Shown: in pieces, positions 23,435 through 33,839 of the stretch | Position numbering within the stretch: position 1 is the stretch's first letter | Layout of the letters: every line of letters begins with the position of its first letter | NCBI GenBank assembly: GCA_945957605.1 | Contig: CAMFLR010000004.1 | Coordinates: 558,001-622,000, forward strand | Source: an uncultured Isosphaeraceae bacterium | GTDB taxonomy: Bacteria; Planctomycetota; Planctomycetia; Isosphaerales; Isosphaeraceae | Direction: 5' to 3' | DNA: 64,000 nt | Made by a program: the position numbers and the translations under genes | The notes under the pieces: generated by a model | What the model saw: only the letters and a program-made list of their open reading frames with translations | What the model was told of the DNA's origin: nothing | The model's database searches: none

Positions 23435-26236
23435 ATGAGCGACAGGGACGACGTGATTTCGGTTCGGGGCGCCCGCGTTCATAATCTGCAAAACGTCTCG
23501 GTGGCCATTCCGCGCGACTCGCTTGTCGTGCTCACCGGTGTCAGCGGCTCGGGAAAAAGCTCGCTCGCATTCGACACGATTTATGCCGAAGGGCAGCGGC
23601 GTTACCTCGACGGCCTTTCGACCTACGCCCGCCAGTTTCTCGACCAGCTCAAACGACCAGACGTCGATGCCATCGACGGCCTGCCGCCAACCGTCGCGAT
23701 CGACCAGAAATCAGGCTCGGTGAACCCGCGCAGTACAGTCGCGACGATCACCGAAATTCACGATTATTTGCGTCTGTTGTACGCCCGCGTCGGCCTGCCG
23801 AGCTGCCCAAATTGCGGCTTGCCCATCGACCGCCGTACGCCCGAGCAAATCGTCGAAAGCGTGCTCGCGCTCGGCGAAGGCAAGAAGGTGATGCTCATGG
23901 CCCCGCTGGTTCGGGGTCGCAAAGGCGCGCACAAGGAAGCATTCGACGCGATCCGCCGCGCAGGACTGATTCGCGCGCGAGTCGATGGCGAGATCATCGA
24001 GATTCAAAACGAGCCAACGCTCGCGAAGACGAAAACGCATTCGATTGACGCTGTGATCGACAGGTTGGTTGTGCGCGAAGGGATTCGCCCCCGCCTCGCC
24101 GAAAGCGTGAACCTGGCACTCAAGCTGGGCGACGGCGTGATCACATTAGCAATTGCAAAAGGCGATGGCTGGGTCGATCGCATTCTCAGCGTGAAATACG
24201 CCTGCCCCGGCTGCGGCATTGGCTTCGCGCCGCTGGAACCTCGAAGTTTTAGCTTCAACAGCCCTTACGGCGCATGTCCGGAATGCAGCGGATTGGGTGT
24301 CCGGCTGGAGTTCGATCCAGAGCTCATTATTCCCGATCGCTCGAAGTCCCTCAAAGACGGCGCAATCGCCGCGTGGGCCGTCCTCAAGCCCGCCGCTCGC
24401 GACACCGTTGAGGACGATTCAGCACTCGCAGCGTTTTTGAAGGCTCACAAGCTCAGCCGTACATCCGCACTGAAATCGTGGTCGAGCAAGAACCTCTCGC
24501 TTTTGCTCAATGGAGATCCCTCGTCAGAATTCACGGGAGTGCTCGCTGGATTGCAGCGAGTGCGAGACGAATCGCGATCCGACGCACAACGCGCTGCGCT
24601 CGATGCATTTCGCATCGAAGTCACTTGCAATGCCTGTAACGGTACGCGGCTTCGGCCCGAATCGCGTGCAGTGACAGTCGCGGACACGTCGCTACCGGCG
24701 TTGCTCGCAATGACGAACGACCGCGCGCGCGAATTCCTGGGCACGATCACCTTCGAACCGCCTGCCGATTTGATCGGTCCGCCGCTCATCAAAGAAATAC
24801 GCACCCGGTTGGCCTTTCTCAGCCAGGTGGGACTTGCTTACCTCAGCCTCGATCGCTCGGCCGATACGCTTTCCGGTGGCGAACTACAACGCGTTCGGCT
24901 GGCATCGCAAATCGGCTCGGGACTTGTTGGCGTCGCCTATATTCTCGATGAACCGACAGCCGGCCTTCATCCGAGCGATACCGACAAGTTGCTGGGCAGC
25001 CTCTTCGGCCTGCGCGACGGTGGGAATAGTGTGATCGTCGTTGAGCACGATGAAGCCACGATTCGCTCGGCCGACTGGTTGATCGACATCGGCCCCGGCG
25101 CTGGGCCCAACGGTGGACGCGTTGTCGCCCAGGGTAAGCCCGAGCAAGTCATCACAACAAGCCAGTCGGCAACGGCTCGCTACCTTCGCGGCGAGACGCG
25201 TTCACCGGGACGAGAACTTGGTCGACTCGAACGAAGTCCAGGAGCCGTTGTCATCGAAGGGGCGTCGGAGCGCAATTTGAAAGGCGCGACGGCACGCTTT
25301 CCTGCTTCAACTCTCATCGGCGTGACGGGCGTCAGCGGCTCGGGCAAGAGCACGCTCGTGCACGAAATCCTGGCGCGAAGCGTTCGTCGACACCTCGGAC
25401 TGATCAGCCCGAAGCCGGGGTCGTGTGCGTCGATCACTGGTCTCGAACTGTTCGACAAACTCATCGAAGCCGACCAGACGCCAATCGGTCGCGGACCGCG
25501 ATCGACTCCCGCAACTTTCACCGGCGTGTTCGACGAAATTCGTCACGTTTACGCCCGTACGAAGGAAGCGAAAATCCGCGGCTACGGCGCAGCGCGGTTC
25601 AGCTTCAACGCGAAGGGCGGACGTTGCGAAACCTGTCGCGGCCAGGGCGCCCGGAAGATCGAAATGAAGTTTCTGCCAGATTTATTTGTCACATGCGAGG
25701 CGTGTGAAGGGCAGCGATTCAACCCGCCCACGCTCGAAATCAAATTCCGTGGCGCAACGATTGGCGATGTGCTTCAAATGCGCGTCGACGATGCACTCGC
25801 GATGTTCGAGAACCAGCCCAAAGTCAGGCGCAGCCTCGAAACCCTGCATGAAGCCGGGCTCGGTTACGTCGCTCTGGGACAATCGAGCACCACACTGTCC
25901 GGCGGCGAAGCGCAGCGCGTGAAACTCGCAAGCGAATTGGGCCGCGTGGGAACCGGCAAGACGCTTTACATCCTCGACGAACCGACAACCGGCCTGCATT
26001 TCTCCGACGTCGCGCGGCTGCTCGAAACGCTGCAAAAGCTGGTCGATCTGGCAAACACAGTCGTTGTGATCGAACACAACCTCGATGTCATTCGCGCCTG
26101 CGACTGGATCATCGACCTTGGTCCCGGCGCCGGCGATGCGGGAGGACAGGTGGTCGCAATGGGTACGCCGGACGAGGTTGCGGCGAATTCTGAAAGCCAA
26201 ACAGGAAAATGGCTGCGATTGCAAGAGATCAAATGA
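23435..26236 (+). CDS. uvrA: Excinuclease ABC subunit A
   Basis: 933 aa from the ATG at 23435 ([21 protein letters not shown]). Two ABC ATPase modules: Walker [15 protein letters not shown] near the start and [16 protein letters not shown] in the second half; signatures [14 protein letters not shown] and [15 protein letters not shown]; Walker [14 protein letters not shown] and [13 protein letters not shown]. Zinc modules [18 protein letters not shown], and CETCRGQGA...CEACEGQ. It recognises DNA damage in nucleotide excision repair. uvrB and uvrC are not here. Its stop overlaps the convergent sctQ-like gene by 8 bases. Confidence 0.97.
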
Positions 26237-27368
26237 ACACTGTTTTGATTCTCACACCAAGCTCGGTGTCAATTTGAACCAGTTCGCCCCGAGCAATCAG
26301 CTTGCCGCCTGCGACGAGTTCGATCGGCTCGTCGGTGTGGCGGAAAAGATCGACGACGTCGCCAACCTTGAGCTCAGCGAGTGCAGATACTGGCAGATGC
26401 GCCCGGCCAAGTTCGATCGTCAGCGTGATCGGCCCCTCGGTTGGCAATGTCTCCAGTCGCTCGGGCGCTGGGCCAGCGGTAATCCCAGATTGGACAGAAA
26501 CCTTGTGACACGAAGTGCCAGGAACGCCTTCAACCTGCATGATCGAGACGCTGTTTTCGCGGTCGCAGATAAGCCGAATCGTTCCCTTGGGCGAATCGAT
26601 GGCGCCAGACAGCGTCCCCCGATCGAGCGGCAGTACGCCACCGACTTTCACTCGCCCCAACCCGCGCGGGAGCGTGATCGTTCCCCCTTCCGCGCGCCAG
26701 GACGACTCGATCACGGTTTGATTTTCGCGTTCGGCGAGTGGGCTCGGCACCTCTTCGATCGCCACGCGGCTCAGCAAGGCTTCCGATAGCCAGAGCCTGA
26801 TCGCCCCTTGCACGCTCCCCATTTTTACCGGCAGGCGAAGCGTGACGAGCTTGCCAAGATCGTTCGACTTGAACGCATCGGGGCCGACGCGTTCGATCGT
26901 CATGTCCCACGGTCCCAGCGGTCCGGGACGGGCGTCCAGCCTGTCGAGTACACGCGCCGCCACGAACGTGAGAACGCCGAATTCGACGGGAGTTACCTGC
27001 CGGCTTGCCTCGACCGGCAATCGTGAGAAACCGAGAAGATGATCGACGATTGCATGTGAAATTGTGTTTTCGATGCCGACGCCAATGCGCGAGTCGAGGC
27101 GTGGCCAGGCGAGGTGGATAATTGTTCCAGGCCGGCCGAGACCGGTTCCTCGCCAGGTGACGTCGGGGGCACCAACTTCGACGGGAACGCCGTCGAGCAG
27201 ACTACGGATCAAGTCTGTCGGCGTTTGAAGGCGGTTGACGATCGTTTGAAGTCGCGCTTCGAAACGATTTGCGGCCGGCGCCTGATCCCAGGGCGCGGCT
27301 GCATCGTGCAGCGTCTGTTCGAGCTCGTTTTCCTCGGGTTCTTCCGGGAACTCGGCGTCAAAGCTCAT
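26229..27368 (-). CDS. sctQ: SctQ/FliM-N family C-ring protein
   Basis: 379 aa from the ATG at 27368; a GTG one codon earlier is possible. The last third holds two SpoA (surface-presentation) domains, around ITLPRGLGRVKVGGVLPLDRG and LTIELGRAHLPVSALAELKVGDVVDLF to the end. N-terminal part includes GVGIENTISHAIVDHLLGFSRLP, as in SctQ proteins. SctQ forms the cytoplasmic sorting platform of type III secretion systems; FliM/FliN build the flagellar switch. It is coupled to the 299-aa gene upstream. No other secretion or flagellar gene is in the window. Confidence 0.75.
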   Translation of the reverse strand: MSFDAEFPEEPEENELEQTLHDAAAPWDQAPAANRFEARLQTIVNRLQTPTDLIRSLLDGVPVEVGAPDVTWRGTGLGRPGTIIHLAWPRLDSRIGVGIENTISHAIVDHLLGFSRLPVEASRQVTPVEFGVLTFVAARVLDRLDARPGPLGPWDMTIERVGPDAFKSNDLGKLVTLRLPVKMGSVQGAIRLWLSEALLSRVAIEEVPSPLAERENQTVIESSWRAEGGTITLPRGLGRVKVGGVLPLDRGTLSGAIDSPKGTIRLICDRENSVSIMQVEGVPGTSCHKVSVQSGITAGPAPERLETLPTEGPITLTIELGRAHLPVSALAELKVGDVVDLFRHTDEPIELVAGGKLIARGELVQIDTELGVRIKTVFI

Positions 27369-28267
27369 CACGGCCGGTCCCCTCTGATTTCTAGGTCGAA
27401 TCGCCGACGAGCGACTTCGAACACCTGGTTTTCCCAGGCGATCACCGCGCGCACCTTGCTTTGTGGCTGCGCGGCAAGTCCGCGGATTCGCTTCACAACC
27501 GGATAAGGAATATGCTGAAGCGCCCAGCGCAGGCGATAATCGTCAACTTGCGCAAGCAAGCGTGACCAGGTGAATACCCCGAGCATTTCGAGCGAGTTTT
27601 GCTTCGATGTCTGCGTCAATTGCCGGTCGTGGCGGGCGACTTTGAGAACGCGCAAATCTTCCGGTTCGGCAAGTTGCGACGCGAACCAGGCGAGCCGGTC
27701 GCGATTGCGCGTGCGTAGGCTCGGCAAGTTCGCATCCAAACGTGAAAGTTTGCAGAGACCAGTCAGCCGGGCGAGCCGGCACAAACTGACGGGGTGAAGC
27801 GTCGTAACCGCTTGCACGATCGGCGCGTCGCCGGCGTGGGGAGGAATATCGCCGACAAGTCGCTCGGTCCAGAGCGATAACACAGCGTTCATCGCAAACG
27901 GTTTGGGTGCGTAATCGGTCTTGAGCGCATTACGATCGAGATGGCAAGCGTTGAGCAATCGAGATCGCAACGGCTCATCCTGAGAAGCCGCCACGATTCG
28001 TTGGACCGCGCCGGATTCGTCCTTGAGCGCTCGGACGAGCCACGTGAAGTGAACTCGACTGAGGTCGGGAAGCATTTGCGCCTTGTGGGCGGTGCGAAGT
28101 TGCTCGAGGGCCTCTTCGGCTGAAAGCGGCCGGCGCATTTCGAGTAGCTGGCGCGCTCGCTGGTGACCCAGCCGCAACAGGAGCGCGGGCTGCTCCGCGC
28201 CGGCCCAAAGTGCGAGCGCGGAGAGCAGGGCACGATTGGTCGGCGATTCGGTGCGCAACGTGGCCAA
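27368..28267 (-). CDS. Unknown protein translationally coupled to the SctQ-like gene
   Basis: 299 aa starting at a TTG (28267); the start is uncertain. All-helical and Leu/Arg-rich, without signal peptide, so cytoplasmic. Segments such as LLAQVDDYRLRWALQHIPYPVVKRI recall the helical repeats of FliG-type switch proteins, and the position just before sctQ resembles that of the sorting-platform accessory SctK; both ideas are inference. The stop TGA shares bases with the ATG of the SctQ-like gene, so the two products probably work together. Confidence 0.6.
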   Translation of the reverse strand: MATLRTESPTNRALLSALALWAGAEQPALLLRLGHQRARQLLEMRRPLSAEEALEQLRTAHKAQMLPDLSRVHFTWLVRALKDESGAVQRIVAASQDEPLRSRLLNACHLDRNALKTDYAPKPFAMNAVLSLWTERLVGDIPPHAGDAPIVQAVTTLHPVSLCRLARLTGLCKLSRLDANLPSLRTRNRDRLAWFASQLAEPEDLRVLKVARHDRQLTQTSKQNSLEMLGVFTWSRLLAQVDDYRLRWALQHIPYPVVKRIRGLAAQPQSKVRAVIAWENQVFEVARRRFDLEIRGDRP

Positions 28268-28348: not shown

Positions 28349-29113
28349 TCACGAGCAAGGTAAGTCGCACGTGAGCCGCAAATCGCGCCCGTTGCAAAAC
28401 TCGACGCAATCGAACCCACCATCGGCGAGTAGTCGCGCGAGCCCATCTTCACGCGGGTCATCGTCGCGCAACCAACCCGAGTCATCATGAATCGTCAGCG
28501 CAACGTGATTCCGCTCGACCTCGACACCCAGCCGGGCGATACAATTGCAATTATTCTTTCGCCCCCACTCGACTCCCCGGTTGAGAATATCGACAAGGGC
28601 GCTATTCAGCCGGCCGATCGAAGGCTCATCAAGCGTCGTGCGAGAAAGCAGCAAACTACGGATATCCGACGCCTGCTGGAGATACGCTACGTCGTCGTCC
28701 GCCTTCACTTCGAGCACGGTTGAGCCCGGCAGCTCGCGCATGTGCGAACGCCAGTTGCTCGCCCGTTTCATCGCCTGAAAAATTTGGTCGGGTGTATATG
28801 GCTTCGGTACGTAATCAATCACCCCTGCGCGAAAGCCTTGAATGCGGTTTTCCGCCGCCAGCCGCGCAGTGACCATTACGACCGGAATCTCGTTGGTCGT
28901 CCGGCACTCTTTCAATGCTTTACAGACTTCGTAACCGTTGATGTCGGGCAGCATCAGGTCGAGAAAAACAACGTCGGGCCGCTGTTCTTCCGCCTTTTTG
29001 ATGGCATCCTTCCCGGTGAAGGCCGAATTCGTTTCGTACCCTCGCAACCCCACCAACATCGAAAGAAGTTGGTTCGCGGCGGGTTCGTCTTCGACGATCA
29101 GCGCGGTCGGCAT
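28349..29113 (-). CDS. Response regulator: receiver plus RsbW-like ATPase domain
   Basis: 254 aa. The receiver spans 1-120: acidic pocket E8/D9, phosphoacceptor D52 (VVFLDLMLPD), T82, K104 (VPKPY). Residues 155-252 resemble a compact HATPase of the anti-sigma (RsbW/SpoIIAB) kind: LNSALVDILNRGVEWG, VALTIHDDSGWL, GLARLLADGGFDCVEF...GRDLRLTC. The N-box is poorly kept (LVDILNRGVEWG lacks the usual EAxxNA) so ATP binding is uncertain. It belongs to the same-strand signalling row 33839 to 26229, 91 bases after the hybrid kinase. Confidence 0.75.
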   Translation of the reverse strand: MPTALIVEDEPAANQLLSMLVGLRGYETNSAFTGKDAIKKAEEQRPDVVFLDLMLPDINGYEVCKALKECRTTNEIPVVMVTARLAAENRIQGFRAGVIDYVPKPYTPDQIFQAMKRASNWRSHMRELPGSTVLEVKADDDVAYLQQASDIRSLLLSRTTLDEPSIGRLNSALVDILNRGVEWGRKNNCNCIARLGVEVERNHVALTIHDDSGWLRDDDPREDGLARLLADGGFDCVEFCNGRDLRLTCDLPCS

Positions 29114-29204
29114 GAGGTAATCCTCGAAACCTCGGTCGGAATGCAGCGGCAGGGCGGTTGCTCTGACGATTCGCGCATTGACGCGAACGAATCACCCGAG
29201 CGCA

Positions 29205-30473
29205 TCAGCCCAGGCCCACGTCCCCAGGGGCCTCGCCAACATCCGCTAAATTGAATTCTACATCAAACGATGGTTTTGGGAATGGCCGACGCGGGAGATG
29301 GATGGTGACCGTTGTCCCCTTACCCACTTCGCTTTCGGCCGAGATCTGTCCGCCATGCATGTCAATGAACTGCCGAACAATCGACAGCCCCAGTCCAAGT
29401 CCTCGCTTCTCGAAGCCAAAGTCGCCGGTTGAATGCCGGCTCGGGTCAAATTCCGTAAAAAATGGCTCAAATAAACGCTTCAAAGCCCTTGGTTCAATTC
29501 CGATCCCCTTGTCCCACACCAAGATTTCGGCCTGGTCGTACGAATTCAATCGCGCGGTCAGACCAAGCTCACCGCCGTCCGGTGTAAACTTCAGAGCGTT
29601 GGAGAGCAGGTTGATGATGGTGTCGCGAATCTTCGGCACGTCGATTAAAAACTCGCCAAGATCCGCCGGCACATCAACGCGAAACTGCATCTCGCGCTTT
29701 TGCACGAACGGCATCAGCCTATCTGCTGCTTCATGCAATAGTAATGCCAAATCAATGGGTGTGCGCTGCAGAGCTTGCTGAAAATTCTCCGCGTGCATCA
29801 TCGTTAACGTATCGGCAACGAGCTTCGCAAGCTGTCGCGCAGCACCCGAAATCTGGTTGACGACTTGTTGCTCGCCTGGGTCGCGATTTGGGTTGAGTAG
29901 CATCAGCAATTCGCTGAGCCCAAGCACCAGCGTAATCGGCGTGTTGAACTCATGGCTCGCAACTTCGATGAACGCGGTTTTTAGCTCGTTCGCCTCGGAG
30001 AGCCGCGAGTTCGCATTCACCAGGTTGGCGTTCGTTTCCTGCAGGCTGGCGATCAGCCGTTTTCGCTCGGCGAGAAGTTCGTACTGCTCGGTCGCCTGAC
30101 GGATGATCCACTCGAGCTCGACGGGATCCCACGGTTTGACGATGTAGCGAAAAATGTGACCTTCGTTGACCGCGCGGATCACCGATTCGAGGTCGGCGAA
30201 TCCCGTGAAGATCATCCGAACTGCGTCGGGATAGAGCTCGCGCACTCGTGAGAGGAACACGTCGCCGGTCATTCCCGGCATACGTTGGTCGGAAAGAACG
30301 ACGCTCACCGGCTCGCGTTTGAGCAACTCGAGCGCACTCGCTCCGTTCGAGGCTGTGAGCACGCGATAAGTGCGATGAAACAGGTGCCGCAGGCTGTCGA
30401 GGACGTCTGGCTCGTCGTCCACAACAAGCAGCGTGTGTTTCCCGCTAGATCGCACAGTTCCGCCTTCCGCCAA
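29205..30473 (-). CDS. Receiver-histidine kinase hybrid
   Basis: 422 aa, starting at TTG 30473, which is well supported by AAAGGAG five to six bases upstream. Receiver 12-128 (D62 in VVLSDQRMPGMTG, K113 in VKPW), a coiled coil 130-165 (LLAERKRLIASLQETNANL), HisKA with H174 (VASHEFNTPIT), then HATPase around 270-400 (NLLSNALKFTPDGG, VWDKGIGIEP, GLGLGLSIVRQFIDMHGG). No membrane helix. The receiver is of the same type as that in the neighbouring stand-alone regulator (SDQRMP, FTGFAD, KPWDP), so both may receive phosphate from the same kinase. Confidence 0.92.
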   Translation of the reverse strand: MAEGGTVRSSGKHTLLVVDDEPDVLDSLRHLFHRTYRVLTASNGASALELLKREPVSVVLSDQRMPGMTGDVFLSRVRELYPDAVRMIFTGFADLESVIRAVNEGHIFRYIVKPWDPVELEWIIRQATEQYELLAERKRLIASLQETNANLVNANSRLSEANELKTAFIEVASHEFNTPITLVLGLSELLMLLNPNRDPGEQQVVNQISGAARQLAKLVADTLTMMHAENFQQALQRTPIDLALLLHEAADRLMPFVQKREMQFRVDVPADLGEFLIDVPKIRDTIINLLSNALKFTPDGGELGLTARLNSYDQAEILVWDKGIGIEPRALKRLFEPFFTEFDPSRHSTGDFGFEKRGLGLGLSIVRQFIDMHGGQISAESEVGKGTTVTIHLPRRPFPKPSFDVEFNLADVGEAPGDVGLG

Positions 30474-30521
30474 CGCGCTCTCCTTTATCTCATAGCAAAC
30501 AAATCATCATGAATCAGAAAA

Positions 30522-31013
30522 TCAAACTCGCCCACCTAATCGTCCTACCTGATCTTCAAGCGACTTCACTCGCGATTGCAAGTCGGCGATCGTGCTCCTG
30601 AGTTGTTCGGCGTACTCTGCCTGCGAGACCAACCGCTCGTACTCGACGGCGGCTTGCCGGACGGCGTCGACCAGTTCTTCCGGCTGCCACGGTTTGCGCA
30701 GGAATTGGTAGATATGTCCCTGGTTGATCGCGGCGATGATCGACTCGAAATCGGCGTAGCCGGTGAAGAGCATGCGCACGGCGAGCGGATTGCGTGCCTT
30801 CACCTGTGTGAGCAGTTCCACGCCGGTGATTTGCGGCATGCGCTGGTCGGTCATCACAATGTGCACTTCTTCTTCGCGCATGATTGCGAATCCCTCCTGC
30901 GCATTGTGGGCGCGCAGGACGCGAAATTCGCGACGCAGCAGGTCGTGCACCGAGTCGCAAACGTCGGGCTCGTCGTCAACGATCAACAGGCAGTGCTTCG
31001 TGCTGGGAGGCAT
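30522..31013 (-). CDS. Stand-alone receiver with C-terminal coiled coil
   Basis: 163 aa. Receiver 6-125 with DDEPDV, D56 (IVMTDQRMP), LFTGYADFESI and RKPWQP. The C-terminal part 130-160 is a heptad-rich coiled coil (YAEQLRSTIADLQSRVKSLEDQV) and no output domain follows. It starts 6 bases after the PAS kinase gene stop, so it is its likely cognate regulator and may pass phosphate or oligomerise. Confidence 0.9.
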   Translation of the reverse strand: MPPSTKHCLLIVDDEPDVCDSVHDLLRREFRVLRAHNAQEGFAIMREEEVHIVMTDQRMPQITGVELLTQVKARNPLAVRMLFTGYADFESIIAAINQGHIYQFLRKPWQPEELVDAVRQAAVEYERLVSQAEYAEQLRSTIADLQSRVKSLEDQVGRLGGRV

Positions 31014-31019
31014 CGGCTC

Positions 31020-33839
31020 TCAGGCTTTCTCGGGAGTGAGCCCGGACTCGGATGGGAGAGAGTAATTCGGCCGGTGCGACGCGTCGAGCGGCAAATAGAT
31101 CGAAAACGTCGTACCGACACCCAGCGTGCTCTTCACTTCGATCCGTCCGCCGTGACCATTGATGATGCCGTGGCTGATCGACAGCCCCAGCCCAGTCCCT
31201 TCACCCACCGCCTTCGTTGTGAAGAACGGGTCGAACAGTTTTTCGAGATTCTCCGGAGCAATTCCCGAGCCATTGTCGCTCACCGAAAGGGCCAGCATCT
31301 CGCCACGAACTTCGCTAATCACCTCGACCTTGCCCCCCTCGGGCCGGTTCTGCATTTCAATCGCCTGGATCGCATTCACCAGGAGGTTAAGAATGACCTG
31401 GCTAATCTGCGACGTGACGCACGGGACACGAATCGGCGGCGGGTCGTGAACGATCACTTCGATATTCTTCCGCTTCCCGCGCCCGTGAATCATCTCGACG
31501 GCCGGGCCGATCAGGTCGCGCACGAGCGCGGGTTCGAGCTTGGGCGGCGACGTGCGCGCCAACCCACGCAGGTTTTGCACGATCGTCGCCACGCGCTGAA
31601 CGCCGTCACGCGTACGCGAGATCATTCGATCGAGATTCTGCCGAACGTAAGTCCAGTCGAGATCTTCCATCAAGGCGTCGACGCGAGCAAGTAAGTCGGG
31701 CGCAGCTTGCGCGAGAGCCTCGCGTCCGCCTTCGAACACGTCCATGATCTCGATCACGCCCTTGAGATCGCGATCGAGCACGGCGAGGTTGTTGCCGACA
31801 TATGCGAGCGGATTGTTGATTTCGTGCGCAACCCCCGCGCTCAGGAGGCCGATCGACGCCAATTTTTCCGATTGCACGAGCATCGCCCGCATCCGCTGGC
31901 GTTCGGTCTGGTCGCGAATCGAACAGATGTACTGCATTCGTCCTTCGAGTTCGAAAGCCGAAAGCGAAAGCTCAAGCGGAAATCGCTCGCCCGACTTGCG
32001 TCGTCCTTGCAACTCGAGCGTTCGGCCGACGATTCGCGCGTCGACGGTCGTCAGAAGGCGTTCCAATCCGCCAGCGTTCTCGGAGCGATCGTCGTCGAGC
32101 AAAAGAGTGCTCAGCCGCATGCCAATTGCTTCAACGGCGGCATACTCGAAAGTTCGCTCCGACGCCGGGTTGAAGAGCGTGATCACCCCTCGGTCGTCGG
32201 CGACAATGATCGCGTCGTGCGTGCCTTCGGTCAGTTGACGATATCGCGCCTCGGACGCCATGAGTGCGCGGCTTTTCGCCTCGAGCAGTTCGGCCGCACG
32301 AAGCTGAGACTCCGCGAACTTGCGCCTTGTTTCTTCGAGCGCGTGACGTTCGGTGACGTCGCGAATCACTGCGAGCACAGCGCGTTGATCTTCGAAGACG
32401 ATTGTCGAGGTATTGATCTCGACGGGTGTAATCTTGCCGTCCTTCGTGCGGTGTCGACCTTCGAATGAAAGATGACCGCGTTCGAGCTGGCGTTTCAGGC
32501 GATCTTCATAACCGGCGGCGAACTCGGGATCGTCGACATCCTTGGTATGAAGCGTGAGCAACTCATCGCGCGAGTATCCCAGTCGTCGACAGGCCGCGGG
32601 ATTGGCGTCGAGGATTTTCCCCTGGAAATCGTGGACAAAAACCGCGTCTTCAATGCCCTCAAAGAGAGCGCGGTTTCTTCGTTCGGACGCAATGAGCGCT
32701 GCCTCGGTGCGCTTCCGCTCGGTCACGTCTTGAAGCGTGGTGCGAATGCCGCAAACCTGCCCGCGGTCGTCGTAGCGAAGCCGCTCGTGGATCGCCATGA
32801 TCAAGCGGCGACCATCCTGAGTAATGTAAGGCCGCTCGGTCTGCCGCAGGCTTCGAATGCCGGCGATTTTCTCGCGGACGGCGTTGCGAGCCTGTTCGCG
32901 CTGCTCGGGCGCGACGAAGTCCACGACCGAACGCCCGAGCATTTCTTCACGTGCAAACCCGAGCATTTCGCACTCGGTGCGATTGATGCTCACGATCGTG
33001 CCGTCGAGATCAATTTCGTGATAGCCGACGGGCGCCTCGTCGTAAAGCCGGCGGAAGCGTTCTTCGGATTCACGAATCGCACGCAGGGTTTGCTGGCGTT
33101 CGGTGATGTCGCGGCCTTCGGGGATCAACATCACCACCTGGCCGGTTTCATCGAGCACGGGGGTGAGTGAAAAATCGACGACGATCTCGGTGCCGTCGGA
33201 CCCGCGGTGAGCGGCTTCAAACCGCGCCATTTCGCCGGCGCCTGCGGTGAGAATTGCTCCCTTCAACCGCTCTCGCAACTCCTCCGACTCCGACCACCAC
33301 GGACCTTCCCAGAACGGGCGACCGACGACGTCGTGCAGTTTTACGCCGACGAAATCAAGCGCGGTGCGATTGATTTCGAGCATCGTCCCTTTGGGGTCGA
33401 GCAGGCCGATGAACTGGAACGTGTGGTCGAAGATCGCACGGAAGCGGCGATCGCGCTCCCGCTTCGCTCGCTCGACTTCCAGACGCATGCGGCGATCGGA
33501 AATAAACGCGATGCGCAGCCCTTTTTCGCCGGTCGTGCAATCGAAGTCGAGCGTGACGTCGACGGGAATTGTCGCGCCGTTCTTGGCGAGCAATTCCTTC
33601 TCATAGCGCACTGGCTCGCGCGAGGCTTCGAGCAGACCATGCGCTTCGCGATCGGTCTCGCGCCAGCATTCGGGCGTCATCCGCGCTTCGGTGAGCTGCG
33701 CGGTTTCGGTGGTGTCGTAGCCGAGGAGCCGCACGAAGGCGCCGTTCGCGCGACGAACCTTGCCGTCGTGTTCGAAAACAACGACCGGCTGCGTGGCAAG
33801 CGTGTACGCTGGGAGGGCGTATTCGCTCGTCGAGTTCAT
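31020..33839 (-). CDS. Soluble multi-PAS sensor histidine kinase
   Basis: 939 aa from the ATG at 33839. Five PAS domains, beginning near residues 10, 131, 259, 386 and 530, several followed by DITERQQ, DVTERKR, DVTERHA or DQTERQR linkers. HisKA with H672 (LSAGVAHEINNPLAY), then HATPase (NLLVNAIQAIEM, DNGSGIAPENLEKLFDPFFTTK, GTGLGLSISHGIINGHGG). No membrane helix or signal, so it senses a cytoplasmic signal, perhaps redox or a small ligand. First gene of the signalling row leading to the SctQ-like gene. Confidence 0.93.
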   Translation of the reverse strand: MNSTSEYALPAYTLATQPVVVFEHDGKVRRANGAFVRLLGYDTTETAQLTEARMTPECWRETDREAHGLLEASREPVRYEKELLAKNGATIPVDVTLDFDCTTGEKGLRIAFISDRRMRLEVERAKRERDRRFRAIFDHTFQFIGLLDPKGTMLEINRTALDFVGVKLHDVVGRPFWEGPWWSESEELRERLKGAILTAGAGEMARFEAAHRGSDGTEIVVDFSLTPVLDETGQVVMLIPEGRDITERQQTLRAIRESEERFRRLYDEAPVGYHEIDLDGTIVSINRTECEMLGFAREEMLGRSVVDFVAPEQREQARNAVREKIAGIRSLRQTERPYITQDGRRLIMAIHERLRYDDRGQVCGIRTTLQDVTERKRTEAALIASERRNRALFEGIEDAVFVHDFQGKILDANPAACRRLGYSRDELLTLHTKDVDDPEFAAGYEDRLKRQLERGHLSFEGRHRTKDGKITPVEINTSTIVFEDQRAVLAVIRDVTERHALEETRRKFAESQLRAAELLEAKSRALMASEARYRQLTEGTHDAIIVADDRGVITLFNPASERTFEYAAVEAIGMRLSTLLLDDDRSENAGGLERLLTTVDARIVGRTLELQGRRKSGERFPLELSLSAFELEGRMQYICSIRDQTERQRMRAMLVQSEKLASIGLLSAGVAHEINNPLAYVGNNLAVLDRDLKGVIEIMDVFEGGREALAQAAPDLLARVDALMEDLDWTYVRQNLDRMISRTRDGVQRVATIVQNLRGLARTSPPKLEPALVRDLIGPAVEMIHGRGKRKNIEVIVHDPPPIRVPCVTSQISQVILNLLVNAIQAIEMQNRPEGGKVEVISEVRGEMLALSVSDNGSGIAPENLEKLFDPFFTTKAVGEGTGLGLSISHGIINGHGGRIEVKSTLGVGTTFSIYLPLDASHRPNYSLPSESGLTPEKA

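Follow-up and report, generated by a model that had tools for sequence, protein, structure and literature searches.

A six-gene row of the Isosphaeraceae predicted to combine two-component signalling genes and a FliM-FliN fusion in three separable modules

The window analyzed here, a stretch of 64,000 nucleotides from the genome of an uncultured Isosphaeraceae bacterium (GenBank assembly GCA_945957605.1, contig CAMFLR010000004.1, positions 558,001 to 622,000), carries a row of six genes in which four two-component signalling genes, labelled K, REC, RHK and RW, lead into a pair labelled U and Q, of which Q encodes a protein of the flagellar switch-ring (C-ring) type. Comparison with relatives indicates that this row has a mosaic structure, with K-REC, RHK-RW and U-Q as its three separable modules. 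Q appears to be a natural FliM-FliN fusion, and RW is predicted to be unable to use ATP in the way that RsbW does. This anatomy and the division into modules are very probably right, and we think that the row represents one operon-like unit of the Isosphaeraceae, presumably with shared transcription. The best explanation of its function, which is held only tentatively, is that of a three-module operon-like row in which RW acts through contact with another protein, U or the U-Q complex being the likeliest partner.

All six genes are encoded on the minus strand. K (31020-33839) encodes a soluble histidine kinase with five PAS domains followed by HisKA and HATPase_c domains (Pfam, NCBIfam), and the phospho-acceptor histidine of its HisKA domain lies within the motif GVAHEINNPL; an ATG start places the beginning of K at 33839, while an alternative GTG start gives 33941. 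REC (30522-31013) is a stand-alone receiver (Pfam) with a heptad-like C-terminal tail, and RHK (29205-30473) is a hybrid of Response_reg, HisKA and HATPase_c domains (Pfam). RW (28349-29113) combines a receiver with a degenerate RsbW-like domain (Pfam, ortholog alignment). U (27368-28267), in which Pfam detected no credible domain, is predicted to be all-helical (AlphaFold2) with a weak FliG_C/ARM-like signal, and Q (26229-27371) consists of a FliM-middle-like domain and two SpoA domains (Pfam FliMN_C, AlphaFold2, Foldseek). The intergenic distances from K to Q are 6, 48, 91, 81 and -4 bases, the last being the overlap of the end of U with the start of Q, which agrees with the six same-strand open reading frames and the gaps of 6 to 91 bases listed in the original prediction. 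That prediction had also described the row as lacking a DNA-binding output domain, and Pfam indeed found none; neither an Hpt domain nor a STAS or PP2C partner was found in the row by Pfam. Promoter-like and terminator-like sites of the row were not above the expectation from shuffled sequences. Beyond the row, the uvrA gene is convergent with Q, and the 3' ends of the two genes overlap by 8 bases (26229-26236).

Alignments of orthologs showed that the phospho-acceptor residues are kept in all three receivers (REC, RHK and RW), as are the His and Asp residues of the relay in these proteins; the acceptor Asp and the DHp His of RHK, the latter within the motif EVASHE[FL]NTP, are conserved among the aligned orthologs. 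The interpretation of the row as a four-step phosphorelay is unproven because the row has no Hpt domain. A four-step relay would need a second histidine carrier and, judging from the sequences, only the DHp domain of RHK could serve as one. In the explanation favoured here, K would sense a cytosolic signal and phosphorylate REC, the RHK receiver or both, RHK would then phosphorylate RW, and RW would act by binding a protein, the likeliest partner, U or the U-Q complex, being encoded on the same message. Within a reduced flagellar export apparatus, U and Q would form the switch-ring layer, U being FliG_C-like and Q a FliM-FliN fusion. U is proposed as the likeliest partner of RW because in several genera the two genes are closely spaced or overlap and because the pair stays together where Q is elsewhere; in three genomes of genus g18, RW and U are found together and Q is located on another contig.

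Q, U and the RHK ortholog were each located in 45 Isosphaeraceae genomes. The original prediction had proposed conservation of gene order as a check, and the order RHK-RW-U-Q was found intact in 19 genomes representing 9 genera, in most cases preceded by K and REC; this order is therefore not due to chance. Q is absent from 9 of the 45 genomes, including four genomes with neither RHK nor Q. Several observations weigh against the explanation in which RW acts on U-Q. Five genomes (genera g9 and g21) carry the relay and U-Q at separate places, and in three g9 genomes the two lie on a single contig at a distance of approximately 37 to 54 kb. U-Q occurs without an RHK ortholog in six genomes (g3, g6 and g17), and RHK occurs without Q in five (G004, G007, G011, G013 and G019; the completeness of G004, G011 and G019 is below 90%). 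The K-REC pair occurs without the rest of the row in an outgroup genome (G121, locus L201), and RHK-RW paralog pairs are located beside unrelated genes both in the same genomes and in outgroups. In genus g14, RW lacks its whole C-terminal domain and U-Q is still found next to it, and the CheY-docking peptide is absent from Q. Finally, the fdx-panC-panD-lgt-moxR-FHA block beside the row is about equally conserved, with no plausible link to it, and adjacency is therefore weak evidence that may reflect retained synteny.

The occurrence of both halves on their own also argues against an obligate coupling of the receivers to the C-ring pair. Co-occurrence of the relay and Q, assessed by Fisher tests, gave p values of 0.09 for all genomes, 0.03 for genomes that are at least 90% complete and 0.6 for genera; these values were not accepted as evidence of coupling because the genomes are related. 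Since the relay survives where U-Q is lost, it must have another role too. In two of the genomes without Q (G007 and G011, loci L082 and L084), only fragments of U were found, next to relay genes that look intact. The within-family backbone of the FlhA tree was not resolved; gains and losses were therefore not ordered and an ancestral state was not inferred.

Nearly as likely as the favoured explanation, although also short of probable, is that the row is a retained neighbourhood in which the relay serves another process (e.g., budding, surface or stress) and U-Q is simply the next downstream unit of an ancestral panC-panD-lgt-moxR block. The genomes with a relay and no Q, among them the two with U fragments, those with U-Q and no relay, and those in which the two are apart would all fit this explanation, as would the finding that the divergent pan block is conserved as well as the row itself. 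In addition, U and Q have diverged much faster than REC and RHK; REC, the most conserved gene of the row, is approximately 70% identical between genera (alignment of 16 orthologs) and RHK approximately 60%, compared to 33% for U and 40% for Q. Against a retained neighbourhood are the location of the genes on one strand, RW-U junctions that are short or overlapping in many genera, the lack of an excess of terminator-like sites, and the persistence of RW-U in g18, where Q is located elsewhere.

The original prediction described U and Q as a C-ring pair; this is certain for Q, while U is only weakly FliG_C-like. Q matched the Pfam family FliMN_C with an E-value of 1.2e-18 and 67.3 bits (cut-off 23.8), and the match was found in 14 of 14 relatives. 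The FliM middle domain (PF02154) scored 13.6 bits in the window's Q, which is below the cut-off of 27; among the 14 Q members, 8 matched this domain with an E-value of at most 0.1, the best being 1.3e-4. AlphaFold2 modelling with 14 Q orthologs showed a FliM-like middle domain and two SpoA domains. In Foldseek searches, the model matched C-ring FliM (E-value 2.8e-9) and an engineered FliM(SpoA)::FliN fusion (E-value 1.4e-8), and the fold of its middle domain matched the FliM middle domain 4gc8 (E-value 8.7e-7). Based on the modelled structure, Q can be described as a natural FliM-FliN fusion, and many of its residues are invariant across 14 genomes. The earlier designation of Q as SctQ-like was not supported: among the named NCBIfam profiles, SctQ (TIGR02551) fits the window's Q best and has a match in each of the 14 Q proteins, but the window's Q, with 70.2 bits, falls under the cut-off of 100.8, and the genome has a flagellar-type set.

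A family search identified Q as the genome's sole SpoA protein. Searching genome contigs with a profile built from the Q alignment yielded 22 named loci, while a contig search with a single Q sequence gave no matches. Carriers of Q include Singulisphaera acidiphila DSM 18658, Aquisphaera insulae, Paludisphaera soli and Tautonia sociabilis. An Isosphaeraceae-type Q was also found on CAMBEP010000005.1, which is titled Candidatus Kuenenia stuttgartiensis; this title is probably wrong. Genomes from other planctomycete families (loci L118, L124 and L126) encode, along with a true FliM and a true FliN, a third SpoA protein of approximately 300 residues that has no FliM domain.

By analogy with CheY, which acts on the flagellar C-ring, it had been suggested that one of the receivers acts on the complex containing Q; phosphorylated REC, or the single-receiver RW of g14, would then bind Q and change the state of the ring. 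The FliM-like middle domain in Q, the conserved phosphorylation residues and the location of the g14 single-domain receiver directly before U-Q are consistent with such a switch. However, a motif test found the N-terminal CheY-docking motif of FliM in 0 of 14 Q proteins, compared to 6 of 6 outgroup planctomycete FliMs as well as E. coli FliM, and in place of the CheC/FliY motif ExxN, Q has EWGV or a similar sequence. Moreover, Isosphaeraceae have been described as not making motile swarmer cells (PMC5352709) and, with the genes for FliI, rod and hook also missing, a switch would have no direction of turning to act on. The canonical picture of CheY docking on FliM is unlikely, and a CheY-like switch in general is given a low probability. 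A receiver may control the C-ring pair directly through something other than canonical CheY-FliM docking; on the whole, direct action of a receiver on U-Q seems doubtful.

The AlphaFold2 model of U is all-helical, with a predicted local distance difference test (pLDDT) score of 85, and Foldseek found no significant structural match for it, FliG being third with an E-value of 0.55. FliG_C (PF01706) was detected just above the cut-off in one of 15 U members (23.5 versus 23.3 bits, E-value 6.8e-5) and not in the other 14. In hhalign, the same stretch of U falls on FliG_C with a non-significant probability of 0.5%, U could not be separated from shuffled sequences with a purpose-built FliG_C model, and the sequence profile of U had no match among solved structures. 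Identification of U as FliG by sequence was not adopted, given the non-significant hhalign result and the failure of the FliG_C model against shuffled sequences. The possibility that U is the only FliG of the genome was rejected, since a mini-FliG gene adjoins fliF. A FliG_C-like nature of U is thus weakly indicated, as a lead rather than a result. U and Q occur together in 34 genomes and Q occurs without U in 2, both of which are fragmented assemblies (34/36), and the overlap between the two genes is usually 4 or 11 bases; this co-occurrence and overlap indicate that U-Q represents a unit, presumably with coupled translation.

The genome (8.8 Mb, 33 contigs) encodes a reduced flagellar-type apparatus on another contig, C18. 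The only FlhA/SctV of the genome is located there (G000:C18:89842-91812) and is complete, with a score of 783.6 bits. The same contig carries a row encoding FliF, a FliG_C protein, FliP, FliQ, FliR, FlhB, FlhA, FlhF and a FliA/WhiG-type sigma factor (Pfam, NCBIfam; FliP was recognised from the translated sequence only), in which the sigma factor gene adjoins FlhF-FlhA. The FliG_C protein is a mini-FliG of 182 residues (L004:1112-1660, on G000:C18), which runs from an N-terminal FliG stretch straight into FliG_C, the middle domain being absent, and is 79% conserved among the three Isosphaeraceae genera aligned. The export ATPase FliI was not found above the model cut-off in any of 20 Isosphaeraceae genomes, and rod and hook proteins (PF00460) were found neither in this genome nor in 19 of 20 Isosphaeraceae genomes; four of four outgroups were positive in both searches. 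The C18 set is flagellar-type rather than Sct-type, and it has no FliI over the cut-off, no rod and no hook. Because Q is the sole SpoA protein and the C18 set includes the sole export gate, Q was assigned to this set, and we infer that the two work together. In two relatives (L203 and L205), a MinD/FlhG-like gene follows the FlhF gene. A description of a reduced apparatus in Isosphaeraceae was not found in the open-licence literature.

With the ATPase, rod and hook gone, U fragmentary in two genomes and Q absent from 9 of 45, the export gate, mini-FliG and U-Q could be seen as decaying remains of a lost flagellum that no longer serve any function. This is improbable, as FlhA is full length in 24 of 25 Isosphaeraceae genomes, and the conservation of mini-FliG and the many invariant residues of Q also speak against decay.

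RW had been described as a receiver fused to an RsbW-like ATPase, and the second part of this description could not be upheld. Pfam identified Response_reg and a very weak HATPase_c_2 match (E-value 0.12) in RW, and alignment with paralogs showed that the N, G1 and G2 boxes have been lost in every row ortholog, along with deletion of the lid. In RW-like paralogs beside RHK paralogs (loci L149 to L152), encoded in the same genome and in an outgroup family, the RsbW-type boxes are intact. RsbW-type kinase activity is therefore not expected of RW, which probably cannot use ATP as RsbW does. One pair of RW-like and RHK-like paralogs with intact RsbW boxes is located at positions 10806-12918 of L149 (G000:C6:326000-345900), and a comparable pair adjoins a uvrA-like gene in the outgroup family (L151 and L152). 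In the two g14 genomes, and likewise in G013 and in G019, RW consists of a receiver alone, with a length of 121 to 131 residues. The idea, suggested by G013 and G019, that the C-terminal domain of RW is kept only where U-Q is kept was rejected because g14 (L154 and L155) lacks the domain yet keeps U-Q. A partner switch, in which the RsbW-like part of RW would sequester a sigma factor (e.g., the FliA-type factor encoded after FlhA) or an anti-anti-sigma factor upon phosphorylation, would fit the alignment of RW with paralogs whose RsbW-like domain is intact and the presence of a FliA/WhiG-type sigma gene next to FlhF-FlhA, but is the least probable of the explanations considered, given the loss of the ATP boxes in all RW orthologs, the loss of the whole domain in g14, G013 and G019, and the lack of a STAS or PP2C partner in the row.

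Among known systems, the flagellar switch (FliG, FliM and FliN, under CheY control) resembles the Isosphaeraceae proteins in that Q has the folds of the FliM middle domain, the FliM SpoA domain and the FliN SpoA domain, and in that the genome has FliF, a FliG_C-bearing mini-FliG, FliPQR, FlhB, FlhA, FlhF and a FliA-type sigma factor. Unlike in the flagellar switch, FliM and FliN are here one chain without the CheY-docking peptide, mini-FliG has no middle domain, FliI, rod and hook are missing, and the C-ring genes are located on another contig beside a two-component row. Like Q, the SctQ protein of non-flagellar type III systems joins an N-terminal domain and a pair of SpoA domains in a single chain; however, the window's Q is below the cut-off of the SctQ model, its companions (FlhF, FliG_C and FliA) are flagellar-type, and no export ATPase reached the cut-off of its model. 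Reduced non-flagellar type III loci of Myxococcales, which have no FliG and belong to the non-flagellar branch (Abby and Rocha 2012, PMC3459982), likewise combine export and ring parts without external parts, are found clade-wide and have no known function, whereas the Isosphaeraceae keep FliG_C and the operon is flagellar-type. The C-terminal part of RW aligns with box-bearing paralogs and in this respect resembles RsbW/SpoIIAB kinases and receiver-RsbW fusions, but differs from them in the missing ATP boxes, in the deletion of the domain in some genera and in the absence of a sigma or STAS partner from the row.

A more speculative and rather unlikely extension of the favoured explanation is that a lost flagellum became a small inner-membrane machine, consisting of FliF, mini-FliG, the export gate and a U-Q ring, without ATPase, rod or hook. 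The two-component row encoded on the same message as U-Q would control the assembly or state of the ring, independently of CheY, through binding of U by the pseudo-RsbW receiver protein RW.

If the signalling row does not act on the ring, it represents a warning against inferring function from a conserved neighbourhood alone; if it does, it would provide an example of C-ring control without the CheY-FliM peptide. Should the apparatus work, the Isosphaeraceae would have kept, across the family, a natural export gate and switch ring without ATPase or rod, which would bear on the use of half a flagellum and on the dispensability of the export ATPase in nature.

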